Assembly: GCF_030816485.1 (NCBI RefSeq)
Contig: NZ_JAUSYC010000001.1
Coordinates: 2,604,001 to 2,668,000 of the forward strand
DNA length: 64,000 nt
Origin: Arthrobacter sp. B1I2
GTDB lineage: Bacteria; Actinomycetota; Actinomycetes; Actinomycetales; Micrococcaceae
Direction of reading: 5' to 3'
Shown here piece after piece: positions 6,304 to 21,751 of this stretch; within the stretch, counting starts at the first letter, position 1; each line of letters opens with the position of its first letter. The notes under the pieces were generated by a model. It did not search any database. It was not told the DNA's origin and worked only from the letters and a program-made list of their open reading frames with translations. The position numbers and the translations under genes were made by a program.

Positions 6304-7419
6304 ATGGCCAATATTGATTTTTCCGCTGAAATACGTGCACTCCGCGCCACCTACGAGTCCATCGAACGCGTTAGCGAAGTAGAAGCACTCAAGGAAGACA
6401 TCGCCGAACTCAGCGAGCGGGCAGGGGAGCCGAACCTGTGGGACGACCCCGCGGCAGCGCAGAAGATCACCTCACGGCTCTCCCACCGCCAGTCCGAACT
6501 GGAGCGACTCACCAACCTGCAGTCCCGGATCGACGATCTCGAAGTCCTGGTGGAGCTGGGACAGGACGAGGACGATGCCGACTCGATGGGGGAGGCAGCG
6601 GCAGAACTCGAGTCCATCAAAAAAGCCCTGAAGGACCTGGAAGTGGTGACGCTGCTCTCCGGTGAGTTCGACGAGCGCGAGGCCGTGGTTTCCATCCGCG
6701 CCGGTGCCGGCGGCGTCGACGCCGCGGACTTCGCCGAGATGCTTCTGCGGATGTACCTGCGCTGGGCCGAGCGCCACGGGTATCCGACGACTATCATGGA
6801 CACCTCTTATGCGGAGGAAGCCGGGCTGAAGTCGGCCACCTTTGAGGTGAAGGCGCCCTATGCCTTCGGCACCCTCAGTGTGGAAGCCGGCACCCACCGC
6901 CTGGTCAGGATCAGCCCCTTCGACAACCAGGGCCGCCGCCAGACGTCCTTCGCGGCCGTTGAAGTCATTCCGCTGATCGAACAGACCGATTCAATCGAAA
7001 TCCCGGACAACGAAATCAGGGTGGACGTGTTCCGCTCGTCGGGCCCCGGCGGCCAGTCGGTCAACACCACAGACTCTGCCGTCCGCCTCACCCACATCCC
7101 CACTGGCACCGTAGTGTCCATGCAGAACGAAAAGTCGCAGCTGCAGAACCGCGCCGCCGCCATGCGCGTGCTCCAGTCCCGGCTCCTGCTGCTTAAGAAG
7201 GAACAGGAAGATGCGGAAAAGAAGGCGATGGCCGGCGATGTCAAGGCCTCCTGGGGCGACCAGATGCGCTCCTACGTCCTCAATCCGTATCAGATGGTCA
7301 AGGATCTGCGCACCGAACACGAAGTGGGCAACACCTCCGCGGTGTTCGACGGCGAGATCGACGACTTCATCGACGCGGGCATCCGCTGGCGGACGGACAA
7401 CCGCAACGCCGAAAAGTAG
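6304..7419 (+). CDS. prfB: Peptide chain release factor 2
   Basis: RF2 recognises UGA and UAA stop codons and triggers peptidyl-tRNA hydrolysis. The 371-aa protein has the RF2 discriminator tripeptide SPF near residues 204-206 and the universal GGQ motif (SGPGGQSVN) near 248-250. The frame is open from ATG 6304, so the programmed +1 frameshift that controls prfB in E. coli is absent. It heads the conserved block with ftsE, ftsX, an M23 hydrolase, smpB and ssrA, so termination and ribosome rescue genes lie together. Confidence 0.97.
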
Positions 7420-7495
7420 GCCGGCCGGTCGGGCTGCGCCGCAGCCGATCCGGCGACACGCCCCCTAAAGCGCGCCCAACCACCCGGCATCCTGC

Positions 7496-7501
7496 GTATA
7501 G
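7496..7501 (+). promoter_or_regulatory. Possible -10 of the ftsEX operon
   Basis: TATAGT matches the consensus well and sits about 105 nt upstream of the ftsE start, in the prfB-ftsE gap. A GC-rich inverted repeat that could end prfB transcription precedes it (about 7421-7450). No clear -35 is visible. Confidence 0.35.
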
Positions 7502-7606
7502 TCAAGGGGCCGGGGCCCTACTTTCCCCAAACGAAGACCCGTGCACCGGCTGCAGAACTGGGCTGCATCAGAAGAATCAGCCATGCCCTGCAGGGTACTT
7601 AGGGCC

Positions 7607-8395
7607 ATGATCCGATTCGAAAATGTCACCAAGGTCTACGACCAGAAAGCCCGGCCTGCGCTGGACTCCGTCAACCTTGAGATTGACCGCGGCGAATTCG
7701 CCTTCCTCGTCGGCGCATCAGGCTCCGGCAAGTCCACCTTCCTCCGGCTGGTGCTGAAGGAAGACCGCGCCACCTCCGGGGCCGTCTACGTCGCCGGCCA
7801 GGACGTCGCCAAGATTTCCAGCTGGCGTGTTCCGCGCCTCCGCCGGGGCATCGGCGTCGTCTTCCAGGACTTCCGCCTCCTGCCACAGAAGAACGTGTTC
7901 GCCAACGTTGCGTTCGCCATGCAGGTCATCGGCAAGAGCCGCAGCGTCATCCGCGACACCGTCCCCGAGGTCCTCAAGACCGTAGGCCTCGAAGGCAAGG
8001 AACACCGCATGCCGCACGAGCTTTCCGGCGGCGAGCAGCAGCGCGTTGCCATCGCACGTGCTGTGGTCAACCGTCCCGGGATCCTCCTCGCGGACGAACC
8101 CACCGGAAACCTGGACCCCACCACATCCATGGGAATCATGGGCGTGCTGGACAAGATCAACCAGAACGGAACCACGGTGGTCATGGCCACGCACGACGAC
8201 GACATCGTCAACGAGATGCGCAAGCGGGTGGTCGAACTCAAGAACGGCGTGGTGATCCGCGACGAAGCCAGGGCCTTGTACACCTCGATGATTCCCGTCG
8301 TCGGCCAGTCCAGGCGCCTTAAGGACGCCAGTGGCAGGGAAACGTCCGACGACGGTCTTCCGGGCACGGGCGCAGAAGGCGAGGCCCAGCGGTGA
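7607..8395 (+). CDS. ftsE: Cell division ABC transporter ATPase FtsE
   Basis: FtsE hydrolyses ATP on the cytoplasmic side and drives FtsX, which activates peptidoglycan hydrolases at the septum. Walker A (GASGSGKST) lies near residue 37, the signature [14 protein letters not shown] near 139, and Walker [13 protein letters not shown] near 160. ATG 7607 gives [11 protein letters not shown], the usual FtsE N-terminus; an upstream in-frame start at 7541 would add 22 unrelated residues. At 262 aa it is longer than the typical 229, owing to a polar C-terminal tail. It overlaps ftsX by 4 bp (GTGA). Confidence 0.95.
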
Positions 8396-9306
8396 GGCTC
8401 GCTTTCATCCTGTCGGAGATCGGCAGCGGCCTGCGCCGCAACCTTTCCATGGTGGTATCGGTCATCCTGGTGACATTTGTGTCGCTCACCTTCGTGGGTG
8501 CGGCCGGGATGCTGCAGATGCAGATCAACCAGATGAAGGGCTACTGGTATGACAAGGTCCAGGTGGCCATCTTCCTCTGCAGTGAGGGTTCGACGGCGCC
8601 GGGTTGCGCGTCCGGGCCGGTCACCCCTGAGCAGCAACAGGGGCTGAACGCACTCCTCGAATCCCCGGCTGTGGTGCAGTACATCAACGACTTCCAGTTC
8701 GAGTCCAAAGATGAGGCCTACAAGCACTTTAAGGACCAGTTCTCCAACTCGCCGATCGTCGATTCCGTGACGCCGGACCAGCTGCCGGCGTCCTTCCGGA
8801 TCAACATGAAGGATCCCGAGAAGTACCAGATCATCAGCGAGACGTTCTCCTCCCAGCCGGGAGTGGAAACGGTGATTGACCAGCGCCAGCTCCTCGAACG
8901 CCTCTTCTCGGTGATGAACGGGGCCTCCCTGGTGGCAGTCGGCATCGCCGGTGTGATGATCGTCTGCGCGATCCTGCTGATTGCCACCACCATCAGGCTC
9001 TCGGCGTTCAGCAGGCGCCGGGAGACCGGAATCATGCGGCTTGTCGGCGCCTCCAAAACCGTGATCCAGCTGCCGTTCATCCTTGAAGGCGTCATAGCAG
9101 CAGTCATCGGGGCTGCCCTGGCTTCGGGAACTCTGTGGGCAGTAGCGCATTTCTTCCTGGGCGACTACATGTCCCGCCAGTATCCCGATACGGCGTTCAT
9201 CTCATCGGGACAGACCCTGATCCTCGCGCCGGCGCTGCTGATCCTTGGCGGATCCTTGGCTGGAATTTCGTCTCTCTTGACCTTACGTAGATATTTGCGC
9301 GTTTAG
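8392..9306 (+). CDS. ftsX: Cell division ABC transporter permease FtsX
   Basis: The 304-aa protein has the FtsX layout: one membrane segment at about residues 20-43, a large extracytoplasmic loop (about 45-175), then three more segments at the C-terminus. The loop has an insertion with two cysteines ([14 protein letters not shown]), a possible disulfide. The permease domain includes [22 protein letters not shown], typical of FtsX/MacB-type permeases. It is coupled to ftsE and followed 27 nt later by an M23 hydrolase, which is the probable partner of the loop. Confidence 0.95.
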
Positions 9307-12639: not shown

Positions 12640-12653
12640 GGGCCTAAGTGCCC
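12640..12653 (+). promoter_or_regulatory. DosR/DevR-like box upstream of the first PNPOx gene
   Basis: GGGCCTAAGTGCCC matches 7 of the 8 fixed positions of GGGNC-N4-GNCCC. Its centre lies about 41-43 bp before the start predicted from GATACC (12675-12680) and ATG 12690. Read from the gene's side it is closely similar to the box at 18996-19009. Confidence 0.45.
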
Positions 12654-12689
12654 TAGCGGTCGGCCCGGCAAGCCGATACCTTCGACTCC

Positions 12690-13139
12690 ATGCACAACGA
12701 CCCTCCGCAAACGCCCACGGAAGTCCTGGATGCCGGAACGTGCTGGGACCTCCTCCGCGGGGTGTCCGTCGGCCATTTGGCCGTGCTGGTGAACGGGTAT
12801 CCGGAGGTCTTCCCGGTCAATTACAAGGTCGACCAACAGTCCCTGCTCTTCCGTACGGGTGAAGGCACCAAACTCCGGGCAGCCGGGGGACCACTCGCCG
12901 TCGCCCTGGAAGCCGACGGCCATGATGACGCCAAAGCATGGAGCGTTCTGGTCAAAGGCAGGGCCGTCATCCTGGAGCCCTCGGAGGAACTGTTGACGGG
13001 CGCAGGGCTTACGCTTTTTCCCTGGCAGGCCGGTGAGAAGGACCACTACGTCCGGATCGTTCCCACCTCCGTGACCGGACGGCGCTTCACCATCACGTCG
13101 CCCCTGACGTGGTGGAACCATGTTGGCACGGCCCACTGA
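12690..13139 (+). CDS. Pyridoxamine 5'-phosphate oxidase-like flavin-binding protein (copy 1)
   Basis: The 149-aa protein belongs to the PNPOx-like split-barrel family that binds FMN or F420. It has the core VGHLAVLVNGYPEVFPVNY, then LLFRTGEGTKL and a C-terminal VTGRRFTIT. True PdxH enzymes are longer and have other substrate residues, so this is a stress-type flavoprotein of unknown reaction. No Shine-Dalgarno is visible; a -10-like GATACC close to the ATG suggests a very short leader. It has two paralogues in the window (18489-18959 and 21094-21555). Confidence 0.85.
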   Translation: MHNDPPQTPTEVLDAGTCWDLLRGVSVGHLAVLVNGYPEVFPVNYKVDQQSLLFRTGEGTKLRAAGGPLAVALEADGHDDAKAWSVLVKGRAVILEPSEELLTGAGLTLFPWQAGEKDHYVRIVPTSVTGRRFTITSPLTWWNHVGTAH

Positions 13140-13159
13140 GGCACGGAGCAGGAGCCGGC

Positions 13160-13173
13160 GGGCCCAACGACCC
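13160..13173 (+). promoter_or_regulatory. DosR/DevR-like box upstream of the HAD-GH65 gene
   Basis: GGGCCCAACGACCC matches all 8 fixed positions of GGGNC-N4-GNCCC. Its centre is 42.5 bp upstream of ATG 13209, the predicted leaderless start; the proposed -10 is TAGCAC at 13197-13202, followed by 6 nt and the ATG. Confidence 0.5.
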
Positions 13174-13208
13174 TGTCTGCAACGCCCGCTTACTGATAGC
13201 ACTGACCT

Positions 13209-16200
13209 ATGACCGGGTCGCCCACCGCCGCTGCTGCCAGGCCGCCGTTCGACGCCGTCATTTTCGACCTGGACGGGGTGGTCACCAACACGGCGCTGCT
13301 CCACCAGGCTGCATGGAAAGACGCCTTCGACCGGATCCTCCATGATGCGAGGCTTCCGCCCGGCGCCGGCCGTGCCCCGCTCAGCAGGACGGACTACCTC
13401 ACCTTTATTGATGGGATGCCACGCGAGGAAGGGGTTGTGCGGTTCCTGGCCTCACGGGGAGTGCAGGTCGAAAAGGGAAAGGAAACGGACCAAGCAGGCA
13501 CCTGGACCGGGTTTGGCTTGGGTGCCTGGAAGAACGAACTGTTCCTGCAACACCTCCAGCAGGATGGTGTCCAAACCTATCCCGGCACGCTGCAGCTGCT
13601 GCAAAGGCTTGCGGGCGCGGCAGTACCAACCGCCGTTGTCACCTCCAGCCGGAACGCCCGGTTGGTCCTGGAAACGGCGGGCATCCAGGATCTGTTCAGG
13701 ATAGTGATGGACGGAACGACGGCGGCAGGGCTCGGCCTGCGCGGAAAGCCGGCACCGGATGTTTTTCTTGCGGCCGCTTCGAAGCTTGGGGTTGCTCCAC
13801 CACACGCGGTAGTGGTCGAGGATTCGGCCGCAGGGGTTGAGGCCGGACGCCGGGGCGGCTTTGGCCTGGTGGTGGGAATCGACCGCACCGGCGACCGCCG
13901 GCAGCTTGAAGACGCCGGTGCCGACACCGTCCTCAATGACGTGGGCGAGCTGGACCTGGGACAGGTCATCGGCAACGCCTGGCACCTCGTTTATGAGGGG
14001 TTCGACGCCGGACACGAGGGGCACCGGGAAGCCCTCACCACCCTGGGCAACGGCTACATGGGAGTCAGGGGAGCGGCCCCTGAGGGCGGCCCGTTCAGCT
14101 ACGCCGGAATGTACCTGGCCGGCGTCTACAACCGCGTCCAGGTTGAAGCCGCCGGCGAGACGCTGCTGGAAGAACACATGGTCAACGCGCCCGACTGCCT
14201 CCCGCTGGACCTGCGCCTGCCCGGCCAGCAATGGTGGTCGGAAGGCGGACTGACCGTAGTCCGCGAGCGCCGGACCCTGGACCTCAGAAGGGCCGTGCTG
14301 GAGCGGCGGCTGCTGTTGGAGGGCGTGGACCGCCGGCGCCTGGAGGTAGTGCAGACCCGTTTCGTATCCATGGCCGAACCCCACCTGCTGGCCCTTGAGA
14401 CAACCATCACCGCCCTGGGCTGGAACGGTCCGGTGGAAGTCCGCAGCGGGATCAACGCCGGCGTCCGCAACGTGAACCTGCCCGAACGTGCCCGGGGGTC
14501 CGACGTCCACCTGGCCGACCGGACAGCCCCGCATGGCGCCAGCCCGGGCATGGCCCCGGAGGCAACTGCCGTCGTCGAAGTCGAAACCACCCAAAGCCTC
14601 ATCCGCATCGCCGCAGCCTATCGAACACAGGTATCTCCGAAAGCGGCGGCCATTGAGGACGGCAGGCAAGGGGCCTTCCACTTCCGTGCACTTCTGCTTT
14701 CCCTGCGTGCCGGTGCCGCGGTGCGGATTACCAAGACGGTGGCAGTGGTGACGTCCCGTGACCGTGCCATCTCCTCTCCGGAAACGGGTGCCCTATCGGT
14801 GCTGGAGCGTTCAGGGGACTTCGCTTCGCTGCTGGCACTGCATGAGGAGGCATGGCGGCGCGAGCTGCGTCCGTTCATGGTTGAGATCGACGCCCCGATC
14901 CCGGTGCGCCTGGTCCTGAACCTGCACATCTTCCATCTGCTGCAGACACTGACACACCATACGGCCGAACTCGATGCCGGCGTCACCGCCCGTGGACTCC
15001 ACGGCGAGGGCTACCGCGGGCACGTGTTTTGGGATGAGCTGTTTGTCCTGCCAGTACTCACCTCGAGGACGCCCGATGTTGCCAGGGCGGTGCTCGACTA
15101 CAGGTGGCGGCGGCTTCCCGCCGCGCGGCATGCCGCGGCGGTGGCGGGCCGGGCAGGGGCAAAGTTCCCGTGGCAAAGCGGCAGCGACGGGACCGAGGAA
15201 ACGCCGAAATGGTTGTACAACGAGAGGTCCGGCAGATGGGTCAAGGATTTCTCCCACCTGCAGGCCCACTCCGGCCTGGCTGTCGCCTTCAACGCCTGGC
15301 AGTACTTCCAGGCCACGGGGAACAAGATCTGGCTCCTTCAAAAGGGGGCTGAACTGGTGATCGAGGTTGCCCGGTTCTTCCGCTCCCTGGCGGACTACGA
15401 CCAGCAGGGCGGCCGGTACCACCTGCGCGGCGTCGTGGGACCGGACGAGTATCACACCGGCTATCCGGGCCGCGGGGAACCGGGCCTGGAGGACAATGCC
15501 TACACCAACGTCATGGCGGCATGGGTCTGCTTCCAGGCTGCGGGCATCATGTCCTTGCTGCACGGCAGCGAGCGTTCCGGACTTATGGAACGCCTCGGCG
15601 TCACAGATGAGGAAACGGCCGGGTGGGCGCACATGGGTACCGCGATGTACGTCCCCTTCCACAGCGACGGCGTCATAAGCCAGTTCGAGGGATACGGGGA
15701 GTTGAAGGAACTGGACTGGGAGCATTACCGGGACAGGTACGGCGACATTGAACGGCTGGACCTGATCCTGGAAGCTGAAGACGACGCAACCAACTGCTAC
15801 AAGCTGGCAAAACAGGCGGATGTCCTCATGCTCCCGTACCTGCTGGGGCACGAAGGGCTGGTCACCATCCTTGAGCGGCTGCAGTACGGCTTCACGAAAG
15901 AACAACTCAACCAGACCATCGAGTACTACCTGGCCAGGACCGCCCACGGGTCCACGCTGAGCCGGGTTGCGCACGCATCCGTACTGGCAGGCCTGGACGC
16001 GGACCGGGCGTGGGACAGTTTCCGGGAAGCGCTCGACGCCGATCTCGACGACACGCAGCACGGCACCACGCGCGCAGGCATCCATTTGGGCGCGATGGCT
16101 GGAACAATCGACGTGGTCCAGCGCAGTTTTGCGGGGCTCCGGTTCAGCGGCGACACCATCCTGTTCGCTCCCAACCTGCCGACGGGGCTCCGCGCCGTTG

Positions 16201-16391
16201 CTTTTGAGGTCCTGTACCGGGGACATCGCCTCCGCGTGCATCTCAAGGACGGGGACATGAGCATCGCCTCCGCACCCGGTGATGCAGGCCCGATCAAGGT
16301 ACACATGTCCGGCACTGACGTGGTCCTTATGCCGGGCCACACCCGGCATTTTCCGGTGCCGGCACGGGCCCGGGGGGTGGCGGTGCCGTGA
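13209..16391 (+). CDS. Fused beta-phosphoglucomutase (HAD) and GH65 disaccharide phosphorylase
   Basis: The 1060-aa protein joins two enzymes of one pathway. Residues 1-250 are a HAD beta-phosphoglucomutase: FDLDGVV (nucleophile), VVTSSRN, GKPAPDVF and VVEDSAAGVEAG. Residues 260-1060 are glycoside hydrolase family 65: the general acid is in VVGPDEYHTG (about residue 748), with KQADVLMLPYLL and the phosphate-binding HGSTLSRVAHA further on. GH65 phosphorolyses trehalose, maltose or kojibiose to glucose plus beta-glucose 1-phosphate, which the HAD part would turn into glucose 6-phosphate without ATP. Which sugar is used cannot be told. The stop overlaps pfkA by 4 bp. Confidence 0.92.
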   Translation: MTGSPTAAAARPPFDAVIFDLDGVVTNTALLHQAAWKDAFDRILHDARLPPGAGRAPLSRTDYLTFIDGMPREEGVVRFLASRGVQVEKGKETDQAGTWTGFGLGAWKNELFLQHLQQDGVQTYPGTLQLLQRLAGAAVPTAVVTSSRNARLVLETAGIQDLFRIVMDGTTAAGLGLRGKPAPDVFLAAASKLGVAPPHAVVVEDSAAGVEAGRRGGFGLVVGIDRTGDRRQLEDAGADTVLNDVGELDLGQVIGNAWHLVYEGFDAGHEGHREALTTLGNGYMGVRGAAPEGGPFSYAGMYLAGVYNRVQVEAAGETLLEEHMVNAPDCLPLDLRLPGQQWWSEGGLTVVRERRTLDLRRAVLERRLLLEGVDRRRLEVVQTRFVSMAEPHLLALETTITALGWNGPVEVRSGINAGVRNVNLPERARGSDVHLADRTAPHGASPGMAPEATAVVEVETTQSLIRIAAAYRTQVSPKAAAIEDGRQGAFHFRALLLSLRAGAAVRITKTVAVVTSRDRAISSPETGALSVLERSGDFASLLALHEEAWRRELRPFMVEIDAPIPVRLVLNLHIFHLLQTLTHHTAELDAGVTARGLHGEGYRGHVFWDELFVLPVLTSRTPDVARAVLDYRWRRLPAARHAAAVAGRAGAKFPWQSGSDGTEETPKWLYNERSGRWVKDFSHLQAHSGLAVAFNAWQYFQATGNKIWLLQKGAELVIEVARFFRSLADYDQQGGRYHLRGVVGPDEYHTGYPGRGEPGLEDNAYTNVMAAWVCFQAAGIMSLLHGSERSGLMERLGVTDEETAGWAHMGTAMYVPFHSDGVISQFEGYGELKELDWEHYRDRYGDIERLDLILEAEDDATNCYKLAKQADVLMLPYLLGHEGLVTILERLQYGFTKEQLNQTIEYYLARTAHGSTLSRVAHASVLAGLDADRAWDSFREALDADLDDTQHGTTRAGIHLGAMAGTIDVVQRSFAGLRFSGDTILFAPNLPTGLRAVAFEVLYRGHRLRVHLKDGDMSIASAPGDAGPIKVHMSGTDVVLMPGHTRHFPVPARARGVAVP

Positions 16392-17413
16392 AGCGGCTGG
16401 GGATCCTCACCAGCGGTGGCGACTGCCCGGGGGTGAACGCAGTGATACGGGGAGCCGTGCTGGGCGGGGACGTTGCGCATGGTTACGAATTCCTGGGCTT
16501 CCGGGACGGGTGGCGCGGTGTCCTGGAACAGGATTTTCTTCCTCTGCCCCGGACGAGTGTCCGTGGAATCTCGCGCCTTGGCGGCACCATCCTGGGCACG
16601 TCCAGGACCAATCCGCTGGCGGGCAATGGGATCGAGGGCGTCCGTGCCTGCTTCCGGCGCCACGGCCTGGAGGGCCTGATTGCGATCGGGGGAGAGGGAA
16701 CCCTGGCGGCAGCCCGGGAACTGGGCGCACAGGGCATCAATGTGGTGGGAGTGCCCAAGACCATCGACAATGACCTCGGCGCCACGGACTACACCTTCGG
16801 CTTTGATTCCGCGGTCCAGACCGCCACCGAGGCCATTGACCGGCTGCGGACGACAGGCGAATCGCACCACCGGTGCATGGTTGCCGAAGTCATGGGCCGC
16901 AACGCGGGCTGGATAGCACTGCACGCGGGGATGGCTTCCGGCGCGCATGCCATCCTGATACCTGAACATCCCGTGTCCCTGGACCAGGTCTGTTCGTGGG
17001 TGCTTTCAGCCCGCGACCGCGGCAGGGCACCCCTTGTGGTGGTGGCGGAAGCCTTTGCACCCGAAGGCCATGCAGCACCCTACGCACCCCGTGGCCTGGA
17101 TACCTTCGGACGGCCGCGGCTGGGCGGCATCGGACTGCTGCTTGAAGGAGAGCTGCAGATACGGACCGGCATCGAAACCAGGGCCACGGTCCTCGGCTAC
17201 ATCCAGCGCGGCGGCGAACCCACAGCCTTCGATCGGGTCCTTGCCACCAGGCTGGGCCTGGCCGCCGTCGAATCCGCCGCCGCGGGCAGATGGGGCACCA
17301 TGGTGTCGCTGCGTGCCACGGACATCGTCAACGTCGGCCTTGAGGAAGCGCTCGGAGAGTTGAAGGTGGTACCCGAAGCGCGGTACCAGGAGGCCGCTGT
17401 CCTGTTCGGGTGA
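16388..17413 (+). CDS. pfkA: 6-phosphofructokinase
   Basis: It phosphorylates fructose 6-phosphate, the committed glycolytic step. The 341-aa protein has LTSGGDCPGVNAVIR, GGEGT and PKTIDNDLGATDYTFGFDSA, then MGRNAGWIAL and the substrate loop. Gly after the acidic residue (GGEG rather than GGDD) is the ATP-type choice, while Lys in PKTIDND is a PPi-type residue; this mixture is known in actinobacterial enzymes. GGEGT also has Glu where E. coli has Asp. GTG 16388 overlaps the stop of the GH65 fusion, so the sugar phosphate producer and its consumer are translationally coupled. Confidence 0.93.
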   Translation: MKRLGILTSGGDCPGVNAVIRGAVLGGDVAHGYEFLGFRDGWRGVLEQDFLPLPRTSVRGISRLGGTILGTSRTNPLAGNGIEGVRACFRRHGLEGLIAIGGEGTLAAARELGAQGINVVGVPKTIDNDLGATDYTFGFDSAVQTATEAIDRLRTTGESHHRCMVAEVMGRNAGWIALHAGMASGAHAILIPEHPVSLDQVCSWVLSARDRGRAPLVVVAEAFAPEGHAAPYAPRGLDTFGRPRLGGIGLLLEGELQIRTGIETRATVLGYIQRGGEPTAFDRVLATRLGLAAVESAAAGRWGTMVSLRATDIVNVGLEEALGELKVVPEARYQEAAVLFG

Positions 17414-17439
17414 CGGGGGGATCTGGGGTGATACGTGGA

Positions 17440-18450
17440 CTACTGTTCCGGCCGGACCCGCAGGACTGCCGAACCGGTAATCCTGTCGGCAGCCAGGTCT
17501 TCCAGGGCCTTGTCTGCAGCCTCGAACGGATAGGCCGTTGTGGTGAGGGCCAGGGAAAGCCTGGCCGCGAGAGTCAGGAACTCACGCCCGTCAGCCCTGG
17601 TATTGGCCGTCACGCTCCGTACCTGCCGTTCAAAAAAGAGCTCCCTGCCATAATTGAGGGCCGGGATGTCGCTCAAGTGGATTCCGGCGATGGCCAGGGT
17701 TCCGCCCCGGTCGAGGGCCCGCAGTGCTGCCGGGACAAGATCACCCGCGGGCGCAAAAAGAATAGCGGAATCGAGTGGCACCGGGGGTTCGTCATAGGCG
17801 TCCCCCGCATACTCCGCTCCCAACTCCAGTGCCAGCAACCGCGCTTTTTCGGACCGGGTCATGACATATACGGAGGCGCCCTGTTTGAGCGCCAGCTGGG
17901 CGGTGATATGGGCGGAGCTGCCGAAGCCGTAAATACCAAGGCGGCCGCCCACGGGCAGGGCCGCGCGTTTCAAGGCGCGGTACCCGATGATGCCCGAACA
18001 CAGCAGGGGCGCCGCCTGGTCGTCCGTGAAAACAGGCGGCAGGGGGTAGGCGAAGTCCTCAGCAACCGTCAAGTACTCGGCATAGCCGCCATCCCTGTCC
18101 CAGCCGGTGAAGACGGGCGCCAGGCATAGATTTTCGTCGCCGCGGCGGCAGTAATCGCACCGGCCGCAAACGCCGCCAAGCCAGGCCACGCCAACCCTGT
18201 CACCTGCCCTGAAACGGGAGCAGCCAGCCCCCGTTTCAATAACGGCGCCGACTGCCTCGTGCCCGGGCACGGCGTGCGGACGGTGCGGTGGTAGGTCTCC
18301 TTCAGCCAGATGGAGGTCGGTGCGGCAAACACCGCAAACAGTCACTTCCACCAGGAGCTCGTTAGCCGCAGGCGTGGGAGTGTCACGGAGACCCTGAACC
18401 AGCGGACGGGTGGATATGGGACCCGGCCCGTTCACCCACCACGCGCGCAC
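17440..18450 (-). CDS. Zinc-dependent alcohol dehydrogenase (AdhA-like)
   Basis: The 336-aa medium-chain dehydrogenase has catalytic zinc ligands in CGVCRTD and GHE, a structural zinc cluster ([15 protein letters not shown]) and a Rossmann segment [17 protein letters not shown]. It would oxidise alcohols or, in fermentation, reduce aldehydes with NADH. GTG at 18450 is chosen because AGGAGG lies just upstream, although the 4-nt spacing is short; a longer frame reaches 18534. It lies 38 nt downstream of a PNPOx gene on the same strand and probably shares its transcript. Confidence 0.9.
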
Positions 18451-18488
18451 AGCGCCTCCTGCCCCCACGTCTTCCGTCCGCGGATCGC

Positions 18489-18959
18489 CTACTCGAAACC
18501 GGCGCGGGTTGCGTCGTCCAGCGGGGTTTGCCACAGAAGCGGTGCGTTCACTGTGAAGCGCCTCCCCGTTACCGACTCCGGCGTGATGCGGATGAAGTGC
18601 TCCTGCCCCACGCCCTGCCAGGGAAACAACGCCCGCCGGATGTCATCCAGGTCAGGGCCGGTGGGCATCGTCTCAGCGGCCCTGCCCTTCACCACGACGC
18701 TCCACGCGAGGCCAAACTGGGAGCTGACCGCATCTGCTTCGAGGGCCACAGTGGCCTCCGACTGGAGGGCCTGGTGCTTGGTGCCGCCGCCGGTACGGAA
18801 AACCAGCGTGCGGCCGTCCACCTTGTAGTTGACCGGAAAGACATCCGGATGGCCCTCGGCGGTGACAGCCAGGCGCCCCACCCCGGTTTGGGAGAGAAGC
18901 GTCCAGCACTCGTCCGCGTCAAGGATTTCCGGCACAGGCACGTTTGTGTTGTCAGTCAT
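18489..18959 (-). CDS. Pyridoxamine 5'-phosphate oxidase-like flavin-binding protein (copy 2)
   Basis: The 156-aa protein is collinear with copy 1: [47 protein letters not shown], and [12 protein letters not shown] at the end. ATG at 18959 gives the same N-terminal length as its paralogues; the frame runs on to 19130 but the extension is unlike them. TACGCT ends 7 nt before the ATG and no Shine-Dalgarno is present, so the mRNA is probably leaderless. It leads a two-gene unit with the alcohol dehydrogenase. The substrate is unknown. Confidence 0.87.
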
Positions 18960-18966
18960 AGGGCAC

Positions 18967-18972
18967 AGCGTA
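18967..18972 (-). promoter_or_regulatory. -10 element of PNPOx copy 2, predicted leaderless
   Basis: TACGCT on the minus strand is followed by 7 nt and the ATG at 18959. Confidence 0.45.
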
Positions 18973-18995
18973 GGCAACTCTTCCGCCTGCCGTAA

Positions 18996-19009
18996 GGGCA
19001 TAAAGGCCC
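18996..19009 (-). promoter_or_regulatory. DosR/DevR-like box for the PNPOx-ADH unit
   Basis: On the minus strand it reads GGGCCTTTATGCCC, 11 of 14 identical to the box at 12640-12653 in the same orientation. Its centre lies about 43 bp before the predicted leaderless start at 18959. It matches 7 of 8 fixed positions of GGGNC-N4-GNCCC. Confidence 0.5.
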
Positions 19010-19021
19010 GGCGTGAAAGGG

Positions 19022-19035
19022 AGGACCTATGGCCC
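19022..19035 (+). promoter_or_regulatory. DosR/DevR-like box for the membrane protein-ADH unit
   Basis: AGGACCTATGGCCC matches 7 of 8 fixed positions and closely resembles the mycobacterial DosR consensus. A -10-like GAGGCT at 19059-19064 would put transcription start near 19071, 42.5 bp from the box centre, leaving a 37-nt leader with a ribosome binding site. Confidence 0.5.
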
Positions 19036-19107: not shown

Positions 19108-20001
19108 ATGCTGACGCATCTGTTCCTCAACCGCCTGCTGTGGGCTGTTGCCGGACTGCTGGCGCTGGCCGCTGCGGTGACCGGAGTCTGGCGGCCGGAG
19201 ATCTACGAGTGGGTGGTCGCCAGGGAACTGATCCCCGGTGCTTACTCCCAGGACCTGCTTTCGGCGGCGGCCGGGCTCGCGTTGCTGTATCTGTCGTATG
19301 CTGCCAGGCCGCACCGGACAAAGTACCAGATCGTGGCCGTGGGGCTCCTTGGCTACCTGTTTTACGCATATGGGATCTACGTGATTGAGCGGACCTACAA
19401 CGGCTTGTACCTGCTCTACATGGCAGTCTTCGCCCTGTCATTTTGGGCGATGGTCACGGCCGGGGCCACCATGGACCGCGGCAACCCATCCGTATCCCTT
19501 TCCCGCGCGCTGAGGATCACGTCGGCGTCCGGGGCCATGCTTCAGCCGCTGATCTTCTACCCACTCTGGATCGGCATGCTCCTGCCCTTGATGCGCAGCG
19601 GTGAGCAAATCGATTCCCTCTACTCCATCTTCATCCTGGACCTTTGCTTCATCATGCCCGGATTCCTGATCCTGTCCTTCCTGACGTTCCGGAACCACCG
19701 CACGGGGCTGCTGCTCCTGCCGGCGCTCTATGTCCTGGGCTTCACCCTCATCTTCTCCCTGGCGGTGGGTGAACTGGTCAAACCCCTGTTCCGTGCAGCT
19801 CCCAGCCTGGCCGCCCTGCTGCCGGCACTTGGGCTCTCGGGGCTTTTCCTCGTGCTTGGAGTACTGCACCTGGCCCGGCTTCGGCCGTCGGGACCACCAC
19901 TTGAAGGCCCAACCGTCCCGCAGCCCGTGGATCCTCAGCGGGCCAGCGCGCAGTCACCGCCAGCGGCCGGGCAAACAACTCAAAGCCGGCCCCCACAGTA
20001 A
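19108..20001 (+). CDS. Eight-helix membrane protein of unknown function
   Basis: The 297-aa protein has about eight hydrophobic segments (near residues 8-28, 46-63, 75-95, 100-120, 140-160, 170-190, 195-217 and 228-250) and a polar Pro/Gln-rich C-terminal tail. I do not recognise the family. ATG 19108 has AAAGGTGG upstream; the frame runs back to 18829 but that part overlaps the divergent gene. It ends 10 nt before the second alcohol dehydrogenase and shares a predicted box-driven promoter with it, so it may serve the same growth condition, for example in solute or redox transport. That is inference. Confidence 0.8.
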   Translation: MLTHLFLNRLLWAVAGLLALAAAVTGVWRPEIYEWVVARELIPGAYSQDLLSAAAGLALLYLSYAARPHRTKYQIVAVGLLGYLFYAYGIYVIERTYNGLYLLYMAVFALSFWAMVTAGATMDRGNPSVSLSRALRITSASGAMLQPLIFYPLWIGMLLPLMRSGEQIDSLYSIFILDLCFIMPGFLILSFLTFRNHRTGLLLLPALYVLGFTLIFSLAVGELVKPLFRAAPSLAALLPALGLSGLFLVLGVLHLARLRPSGPPLEGPTVPQPVDPQRASAQSPPAAGQTTQSRPPQ

Positions 20002-20011
20002 GGAAAACACC

Positions 20012-21085
20012 GTGAAAGCTCTCGTCTACGGCGGACCCGGCGACAAGTCATGGATGGATGTTCCAGACCCGCGGATCCAGCAACCCGGCGACGCCATCGT
20101 CAGAGTTGAAACCACCACGATCTGCGGTACGGACCTGCATATCCTCAAAGGTGACGTGCCCGCCGTCGAAAAAGGCCGGATCCTGGGCCACGAAGGGGTG
20201 GGAACCATCGTGGAGACGGGTCCTTCCGTGACGGGCCTGAAGGTGAACGACCGCGTCATCATCTCGTGCATCAAATCCTGCGGCCGTTGTGCCAACTGCA
20301 AGACGGGCCTCTATTCACACTGCCTCGGGGACGAGGGCCAAGAGGGTACTGGGTGGATCTTCGGCCACCTGATCGACGGGACCCAGGCAGAATACGTCCG
20401 TGTTCCCTATGCCGATAACTCACTGCACCTGTTGCCCGGGGGAGTCAGCGACGAACAGGCCGTCATGCTGTCGGACATCCTTCCCACCGGATTCGAAATC
20501 GGGGTCCAGTACGGCCGCGTCAAGCCCGGCGACAGCGTGGCGGTGGTAGGTGCCGGTCCGGTGGGCCTGGCGGCAATCGCTACTGCCGGACTGTACGGCG
20601 CGGCTACGGTGATAGCCATCGACCTCGATGCCAACCGCCTTGAAAAAGCGAAGGAATTCGGTGCCACGGACACCGTCCTTTCCAGCAGTGGCGACTGGAA
20701 GGACCAGGTCATGCAGCTCACCGGCGGGCACGGCGTGGACGTGGCCATCGAAGCTGTGGGCATCCCGGCAACGTTCGCAATGTGCACGGACATTGTGCGG
20801 CCCGGCGGCTCGGTGGCGAACGTGGGAGTGCACGGAAAACCGGTGGAACTGCACCTGGAAAACCTTTGGATCCAAAACATCAACATCAGCATGGGGCTGG
20901 TGAATACCAACACGACACCCATGCTGCTCAAGCTGGTGGCGCAGGGAAAGATCAGGGCGGAAAAATTCGCCACGCACCATTTTGGTTTCGACCAGTTCCT
21001 CGACGCCTATGACACCTTCTCCCGGGCTGCCGAAACCAAGGCGCTCAAAGTGATCCTCAAGGCCCAGGCAAGCCGGCCTGCCTGA
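20012..21085 (+). CDS. Zinc-dependent alcohol dehydrogenase
   Basis: The 357-aa medium-chain dehydrogenase has ICGTDLHILKGD and GHEGVG (catalytic zinc), CGRCANCKTGLYSHC (structural zinc), and the NAD-binding VAVVGAGPVGLAAIATAGL. Its long insert GTGWIFGHLIDGTQAEYVRVP resembles the class that acts on ethanol, butanediol or isopropanol; I cannot fix the substrate. GTG 20012 has AAGGAAA upstream and lies 10 nt after the membrane protein gene. With the enzyme at 17440 it makes a pair of dehydrogenases of the same type in divergent units. Confidence 0.92.
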   Translation: MKALVYGGPGDKSWMDVPDPRIQQPGDAIVRVETTTICGTDLHILKGDVPAVEKGRILGHEGVGTIVETGPSVTGLKVNDRVIISCIKSCGRCANCKTGLYSHCLGDEGQEGTGWIFGHLIDGTQAEYVRVPYADNSLHLLPGGVSDEQAVMLSDILPTGFEIGVQYGRVKPGDSVAVVGAGPVGLAAIATAGLYGAATVIAIDLDANRLEKAKEFGATDTVLSSSGDWKDQVMQLTGGHGVDVAIEAVGIPATFAMCTDIVRPGGSVANVGVHGKPVELHLENLWIQNINISMGLVNTNTTPMLLKLVAQGKIRAEKFATHHFGFDQFLDAYDTFSRAAETKALKVILKAQASRPA

Positions 21086-21093
21086 AGGACGGG

Positions 21094-21555
21094 CTACAGC
21101 CAGTCGGCGGAGAAATCGACCGGCGGCCACCAGCGCGTGCGCGACCTGACCGCGAACCGGCGGCCAGTGATATCAGTGGGGGTAATGGCCACCAGATGGT
21201 CCTTGATCCCCGGCTGCCACGGTTCCCGGTCGGCGTCGTCCGGGACGTGCATGCTGGTTTCATCGAACGGCTGCGGCCTGCCCTTGGCAACAACGCTCCA
21301 GACCTCCGTGGCGTAAGGGTTGAGTCCGTCCACTTCCAGCGCGGCGACTGCACCGCTGAGCAGGGCACGAAGCTTGGTTCCCGGCGCCGTGCGGAACACC
21401 AGGGTTTCTCCGGCAACGGAAAAATTCACCGGAAAAATCTCGGGTACATCACCGTTGATGACCGCCAGCCGGCCGATATAAGAGGACCGAAGGTACCGCC
21501 AGCACTCATCAGCGCCCAGTATTTCTGTTTGAGACCCTGCCGGGGATTCGGTCAT
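21094..21555 (-). CDS. Pyridoxamine 5'-phosphate oxidase-like flavin-binding protein (copy 3)
   Basis: The 153-aa protein follows the same plan as copies 1 and 2: ILGADECWRYL, IGRLAVINGDVPEIFPVNF, LVFRTAPGTKL and ITGRRFAVRS. It is tail to tail with the alcohol dehydrogenase, 8 nt away, and divergent from a PDZ protease. TAGGAT lies 6 nt before the ATG, so a leaderless transcript is likely. Only a poor match to the DosR-like box (5 or 6 of 8 fixed positions) is seen at about 21595-21608. Confidence 0.85.
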   Translation of the reverse strand: MTESPAGSQTEILGADECWRYLRSSYIGRLAVINGDVPEIFPVNFSVAGETLVFRTAPGTKLRALLSGAVAALEVDGLNPYATEVWSVVAKGRPQPFDETSMHVPDDADREPWQPGIKDHLVAITPTDITGRRFAVRSRTRWWPPVDFSADWL

Positions 21556-21561
21556 GCTCCG

Positions 21562-21567
21562 ATCCTA
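21562..21567 (-). promoter_or_regulatory. -10 element of PNPOx copy 3, predicted leaderless
   Basis: TAGGAT on the minus strand is followed by exactly 6 nt and the ATG at 21555. Confidence 0.45.
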
Positions 21568-21751
21568 GGGCCTGGACGGCAGCCGCGCACGGGTGGGGAA
21601 GGGGCCGCGCCAGCAGGGCGGGCCGCAATTGCTGCGTTCACCCACGGCGTAGCGGCAGCGGGACTTGAATCTGGCCGTCCGTCGTTGTTTCCCGTAAGGA
21701 CCCGGAAGGGCCACGGCACTGCCGGGAACGGCATGAACCTGGAGGTGCGCC

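Follow-up and report, generated by a model that had tools for sequence, protein, structure and literature searches.

Promoters controlled by DosR (DevR) typically carry a binding box that is centred near −42.5 and overlaps the −35 region. Here we describe four boxes of this type in a 64,000-nucleotide stretch of the Arthrobacter sp. B1I2 genome (contig NZ_JAUSYC010000001.1, positions 2,604,001 to 2,668,000; hereafter, the window), which precede genes for pyridoxamine 5'-phosphate oxidase-like proteins (PNPOx), a protein with fused HAD and GH65 domains, a 6-phosphofructokinase (PFK) and alcohol dehydrogenases (ADH). In form the boxes are like the stringent Mycobacterium smegmatis motif GGGACTTNNGNCCCT (PMC6448022). 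The core of the putative DosR box consensus of Rhodococcus equi, NNNGGGHCNWWNGNCCCBNN (PMC2947987), is fitted exactly by the box at 13160, and the other three are each off by one base.

For OsdR of Streptomyces coelicolor the consensus is AGGGCCGATCGGCCCT, and predicted sites precede the PNPOx gene SCO0214 (site at −50), pyruvate phosphate dikinase (PPDK), universal stress proteins and the alcohol dehydrogenase SCO0199 (PMC5069765). The Arthrobacter genes fall into the same classes as the OsdR/OsdK regulon (PNPOx, PPDK, stress proteins and ADH). Unlike in OsdR sites, the box centre here is often T/A-rich, then TA, TG or TT, and HAD-GH65-PFK does not appear in the OsdR site table of PMC5069765. 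In Mycobacterium tuberculosis, Rv2006 is listed in the DosR regulon with one motif (PMC2275270). Unlike in M. tuberculosis, the PFK here is of the PfkA superfamily and ADHs are prominent. The accessible open-licence literature yielded no earlier report of a DosR regulon in Arthrobacter/Pseudarthrobacter, an earlier mention being possible.

We consider it very likely that the four boxes are genuine DosR/DevR-type sites. With high confidence, we further predict that they are bound by the genome's own DosR/DevR-type regulator, which would most likely be phosphorylated by the adjoining haem-GAF kinase of DosS type. A DosR/DevR-like reading had been proposed in a preliminary description of the window, and it is supported by the orthologue and kinase in the genome, by boxes ahead of dormancy-type genes, by positional conservation and by co-occurrence with the regulator.

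Position and form of the four boxes

Mismatches to the pattern GGGNCN4GNCCC (GGGNC-N4-GNCCC) were counted against its eight core positions. Boxes were ranked with a 16-position matrix trained on 11 sites chosen by eye, all outside the window (six from L013, two from L017, and L094, L101 and L105). Training excluded the intergenic places L095, L099, L104, L108 and L110, the window's own site L113, and the site at a fourth PNPOx gene (PNPOx4) when read towards DosS.

12640–12653, + strand: DosR-type box GGGCCTAAGTGCCC, one mismatch; centre at −43.5 relative to the start codon at 12690; matrix rank 8
13160–13173, + strand: DosR-type box GGGCCCAACGACCC, exact; centre at −42.5 relative to the start codon at 13209; matrix rank 6
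18996–19009, − strand: DosR-type box GGGCATAAAGGCCC, one mismatch; reads GGGCCTTTATGCCC towards its gene; centre at −43.5 relative to the start codon at 18959; matrix rank 3
19022–19035, + strand: DosR-type box AGGACCTATGGCCC, one mismatch; faces the divergent + strand operon; top matrix match of the window, rank 1

The ranks are among 127,970 oriented positions, and the strand is correct for each gene. All four boxes stand where the preliminary description had placed them, the one it called perfect (13160) being the exact match. The repeated spacing on which it relied is genuine for the first three, and the unit behind 19022 begins later. Because the centres lie 42.5–43.5 bp ahead of the start codons, the transcripts at 12690, 13209 and 18959 are suggested to be leaderless; the box at 19022 is upstream of a membrane-protein gene at 19108, implying a short leader.

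Spacing was measured to the start codon and to the −10-like hexamer. Across 16 boxes of the genome, NANNNT starts exactly 23 bp past the box in 13; among 29 offsets, no other reached more than 2 of 16. This rule holds for three of the four boxes in the window and for 10 of the 12 outside it, the exception in the window being 13160 (before 13209), with TAGCAC at the 23-bp offset. The other 63 raw matches in the window, taken in both directions, gave no clear peak (NANNNT at 23 bp in 7/126, versus 1–8/126 at the other 29 offsets). In M. smegmatis, TANNNT is the preferred −10 element and leaderless starts are common (PMC6448022).

A DosR-type regulator and kinase in the genome

Four HisKA_3 kinase matches were found in the genome. 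One of these kinases (L013:9495–11255) lies ~0.1 kb from a PF12900 gene (PNPOx4, L013:8972–9430) and adjoins a NarL-type regulator (L013:11305–12009). The search for a DevR/DosR homologue, which the preliminary description had suggested, thus found an orthologue (C1:3010308–3011009) beside a DosS/DosT-type kinase. Its closest solved relative is DevR/DosR itself (3c3w; 221 bits, versus 130 for the next, VraR), with a match spanning query residues 26–228, i.e., the receiver and helix-turn-helix domains. Like M. tuberculosis DosR, it has D54, K179, K182 and N183 (3c3w alignment, positions counted by hand), which correspond to the phospho-acceptor Asp54 and to the DNA contacts K179, K182 and N183 (PMC5999986). 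The kinase GAF domain matches the GAF-A domains of DosT/DevS at 176–182 bits and retains, in HPPMRTFLG, the histidine counted as His149, the proximal haem ligand (PMC4082495); HisKA_3 and HATPase domains are also present. The neighbouring kinase is therefore a predicted haem-type DosS/DosT kinase.

By Pfam, the neighbourhood of the regulator encodes HSP20, P-type ATPases, a PPDK-type enzyme and a universal stress protein, with a second stress protein recognised by eye. HSP20 and P-type ATPases are classes that recur in M. tuberculosis or OsdR regulons. The stress-protein genes are preceded by the boxes GTGACCTTCGGCCCTA and GTGACTTTTGGCCCTA (7/8 core positions), further 7/8 variants stand before HSP20, PNPOx4 and DosR itself, and a 6/8 variant before PPDK. 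Outside the window, a Flavodoxin_5 protein (L101:916–1473) and an MPAB_Lcp oxygenase-like protein (L105:1550–2368; box at −42.5) are further possible regulon members.

The genome holds a second DosRS-like pair, with a regulator at L017:6373–7059 (+) that is 58% identical to the first, and a kinase at 7127–8806 (−) that keeps the haem histidine motif. The boxes could thus be genuine sites of another NarL-family regulator, such as this one acting with its own DosS-like kinase, and similar boxes do occur before its own gene and nearby. However, it has E, V and A at the DosR DNA contacts K179, K182 and N183, all three of which the first regulator keeps, and we regard this alternative as very unlikely.

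Conservation and co-occurrence of the boxes

To the window we compared 19 fetched Arthrobacter/Pseudarthrobacter loci (L021–L039). The block of PNPOx1, HAD-GH65, PFK, ADH1 and PNPOx2 was found in 10 of the 19, PNPOx1 aligning only partly in L022. L022 (start not aligned) was kept out of the PNPOx1 promoter set and L027 (a 5-kb contig with no PNPOx match) out of the PNPOx sets, with L031 and L034 reassigned from the first HAD-GH65 promoter set to a second group. Promoters were scored at −52 to −37, with the window counted among the loci.

A box was present in every scored promoter of PNPOx1 (10/10 loci; score 7.7–13.2), HAD-GH65 (12/12; 8.7–13.4) and PNPOx2 (11/11; 11.2–13.0), with all centres at −42.5 to −44.5. 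Identity to the window within the box was 0.81, 0.85 and 0.97, respectively, versus promoter means of 0.53, 0.63 and 0.71, and the box ranked 5th, 8th and 3rd among 97 overlapping 14-base stretches. A further nine HAD-GH65 loci had a weaker box (4.7–8.5) at −42.5 or −43.5 in six cases. The box at 19022 was present in all seven loci with ADH2 (window included; L022, L023 and L033 at 6/8 core positions) and in none of the four without ADH2. PNPOx3, a boxless paralogue in the window that serves as an internal negative control, had a box in 0/11 loci (best score, 1.7).

The co-occurrence of regulator and boxes was profiled in a family sample of 197 genomes, 71 of them DosR-positive (regulator at E 1e-40 or better) and 126 DosR-negative. 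A strong box (matrix score ≥9) preceded the best PNPOx homologue in 17 of 27 DosR-positive genomes (the window itself included), compared with 0 of 30 DosR-negative genomes, and all 17 were at −42.5 to −44.5. The DosR-positive set of 27 was made up of those PNPOx matches with loci that were closest within the family, and the 30 were hand-chosen from the 126 for having a PNPOx match. With PNPOx identity restricted to 50–59%, the counts were 13/22 and 0/11 (Fisher p 0.0016). The strict pattern occurred in 45/71 DosR-positive versus 9/126 DosR-negative genomes (90 versus 9 sites). In three DosR-negative loci, L071 (G009), L088 (G070) and L145 (G046), the PNPOx box position looks eroded by eye (with remnants such as gccctacc or actctggc) and the −10 region is kept.

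Pattern, score and the possibility of chance

The boxes might instead match a short palindrome rich in GC merely by chance, the spacing having been chosen post hoc, and a number of observations weigh on that side and against DosR-type sites. Within the window, the pattern with at most one mismatch occurs 67 times versus 134 expected, and the genome-wide scan that the preliminary description had proposed gave 222 exact matches in 4.68 Mb versus 453 for the reversed control. The bare pattern is thus rarer than in shuffles and in the reversed control, and the earlier warning that single matches prove nothing was right; counting it as evidence was discarded because of this depletion. A tighter pattern, GGGHCNWWNGNCCC, gave 20 forward matches versus 54 for its control, and 9 of 20 places were intergenic by a rough gene call (20 of 25 distinct places examined).

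For three of the boxes, the matrix score is close to what chance would give. Only 19022 is exceptional (1 seen versus 0.017 expected in shuffles). Positions scoring ≥10.9 number 8 in the real window and average 5.3 per shuffled window, so rank alone is not proof; the score alone was also discarded as proof, since values of 11–13 occur several times in shuffled windows. In form, 12640 and 18996 (gene-facing read) have T instead of G at core position 10, and the full TANNNT is found in only 4 of the 16 boxes. The 19-kb regulator region contains 31 raw matches at 7/8 overall, so its sites had to be picked by eye for those preceding genes.

The comparative data add to these points. The HAD-GH65 promoters of L034 and L048 show no recognisable box, and that of L036 shows none near −43. 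A strong box is missing before ten of the 27 best-match PNPOx genes of DosR-positive genomes, so not every PNPOx homologue is regulated. The DosR-negative PNPOx set is less similar on average, because the positive set comprised the closest matches. The reversed control of the strict pattern is also unequal (44 versus 30 sites; 30/71 versus 26/126 genomes), and the genome counts are not independent, shared ancestry inflating the co-occurrence figures.

Chance is nevertheless disfavoured because the boxes are conserved, holding the same position before 10, 12 and 11 orthologous genes (window included). In addition, the box at 19022 is gone where ADH2 is gone, boxes are scarcer where DosR is missing, and the 23-bp offset to the −10-like hexamer is constant. 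We judge a chance origin to be extremely improbable. The orthology of the regulator and the form, position, orientation, conservation and co-occurrence of the sites can be read directly from the sequences.

Genes behind the boxes

12690–13139, + strand: PNPOx1, Pfam family PF12900 (pyridoxamine 5'-phosphate oxidase-like)
13209–16391, + strand: HAD (beta-phosphoglucomutase-like) domain fused to a GH65 domain
16388–17413, + strand: PFK (6-phosphofructokinase), overlapping the HAD-GH65 gene
17440–18468, − strand: ADH1, zinc-type alcohol dehydrogenase encoded downstream of PNPOx2; approximate start
18489–18959, − strand: PNPOx2, PF12900 protein
19108–20001, + strand: hydrophobic protein without a Pfam family, by eye probably integral to the membrane
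20012–21085, + strand: ADH2, zinc-type alcohol dehydrogenase, starting with GTG 10 bp past the membrane-protein gene, AAGGA ahead
21094–21555, − strand: PNPOx3, PF12900 paralogue without a box

The HAD-GH65 and PFK genes overlap and are therefore likely one transcription unit, and the membrane-protein gene and ADH2 are read as one operon under the box at 19022. An open reading frame on the + strand (17410–18129), antisense to ADH1, is probably spurious.

The best matches of the HAD-GH65 protein are GH65 enzymes (a chain named trehalose-6-phosphate hydrolase, then kojibiose phosphorylase) and beta-phosphoglucomutases, and it falls under the NCBIfam cut-off for every single GH65 or mutase function. 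Relatives at up to 87% identity occur in Pseudarthrobacter and Arthrobacter. Others, at 35–41% identity among L040–L063, belong to Chlorobi, Bacteroidales, Spirochaetes and one Omnitrophota bin. A homologue in a Mycobacterium (L048, 44%) differs from the window protein by an additional segment of ~830 nt that separates HAD from GH65. Rv2006 is annotated as OtsB1 and has a comparable layout.

In relatives, the PNPOx3 promoter (21555–21640, −) conserves a stretch resembling GTGCGCGG as well as TAGGAT directly before the ATG, which suggests that PNPOx3 may be under another control.

Proposed mechanism and significance

From these features we infer binding, activation, an oxygen or nitric oxide (NO) signal and the roles of the enzymes. 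Upon falling oxygen or rising NO, DosR would be phosphorylated by the haem kinase, and its dimers would bind near −43, overlap the −35 region and bring RNA polymerase to the −10 element 23 bp downstream. Four units would be turned on, i.e., PNPOx1, HAD-GH65 with PFK, PNPOx2 with ADH1, and the membrane protein with ADH2. ATP would be spared by the phosphorolytic cleavage of a disaccharide (one resembling trehalose, maltose or kojibiose, or a phosphate of such a sugar), the fused mutase and PFK would supply glycolysis, and the ADHs would restore NAD. The four units may accordingly form a low-oxygen module that combines ATP-saving sugar use with NAD recycling.

The main input to genuine DosR sites could also be something other than oxygen, namely NO, carbon monoxide (CO), redox state or development. 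In M. tuberculosis, NO, CO or hypoxia can each set off the regulon (PMC4428469), and the influence of Streptomyces OsdR extends to developmental genes (PMC5069765). The histidine that serves as haem ligand is kept, though it is compatible with sensing of O2, NO or CO alike, and the target enzymes suit fermentation; we consider such an input unlikely.

Soil actinobacteria of the host group are usually regarded as aerobic. A tentative extension of the DosR reading is that the module is a self-contained, DosR-controlled fermentation cassette that lets such a bacterium live on stored sugar once oxygen is gone. If so, the simpler HAD-GH65 protein would hint at the role of its relative Rv2006 in the tuberculosis dormancy regulon. 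The predicted sites would place the oxygen-linked dormancy switch of tuberculosis, with a defined target set, in ordinary soil bacteria of the Micrococcaceae type, and the boxless PNPOx3 offers a ready control. The joint absence of regulator and sites within the family sample may serve as a natural experiment on how a regulon grows and decays, and a role in dormancy is suggested for the HAD-GH65 enzyme class.

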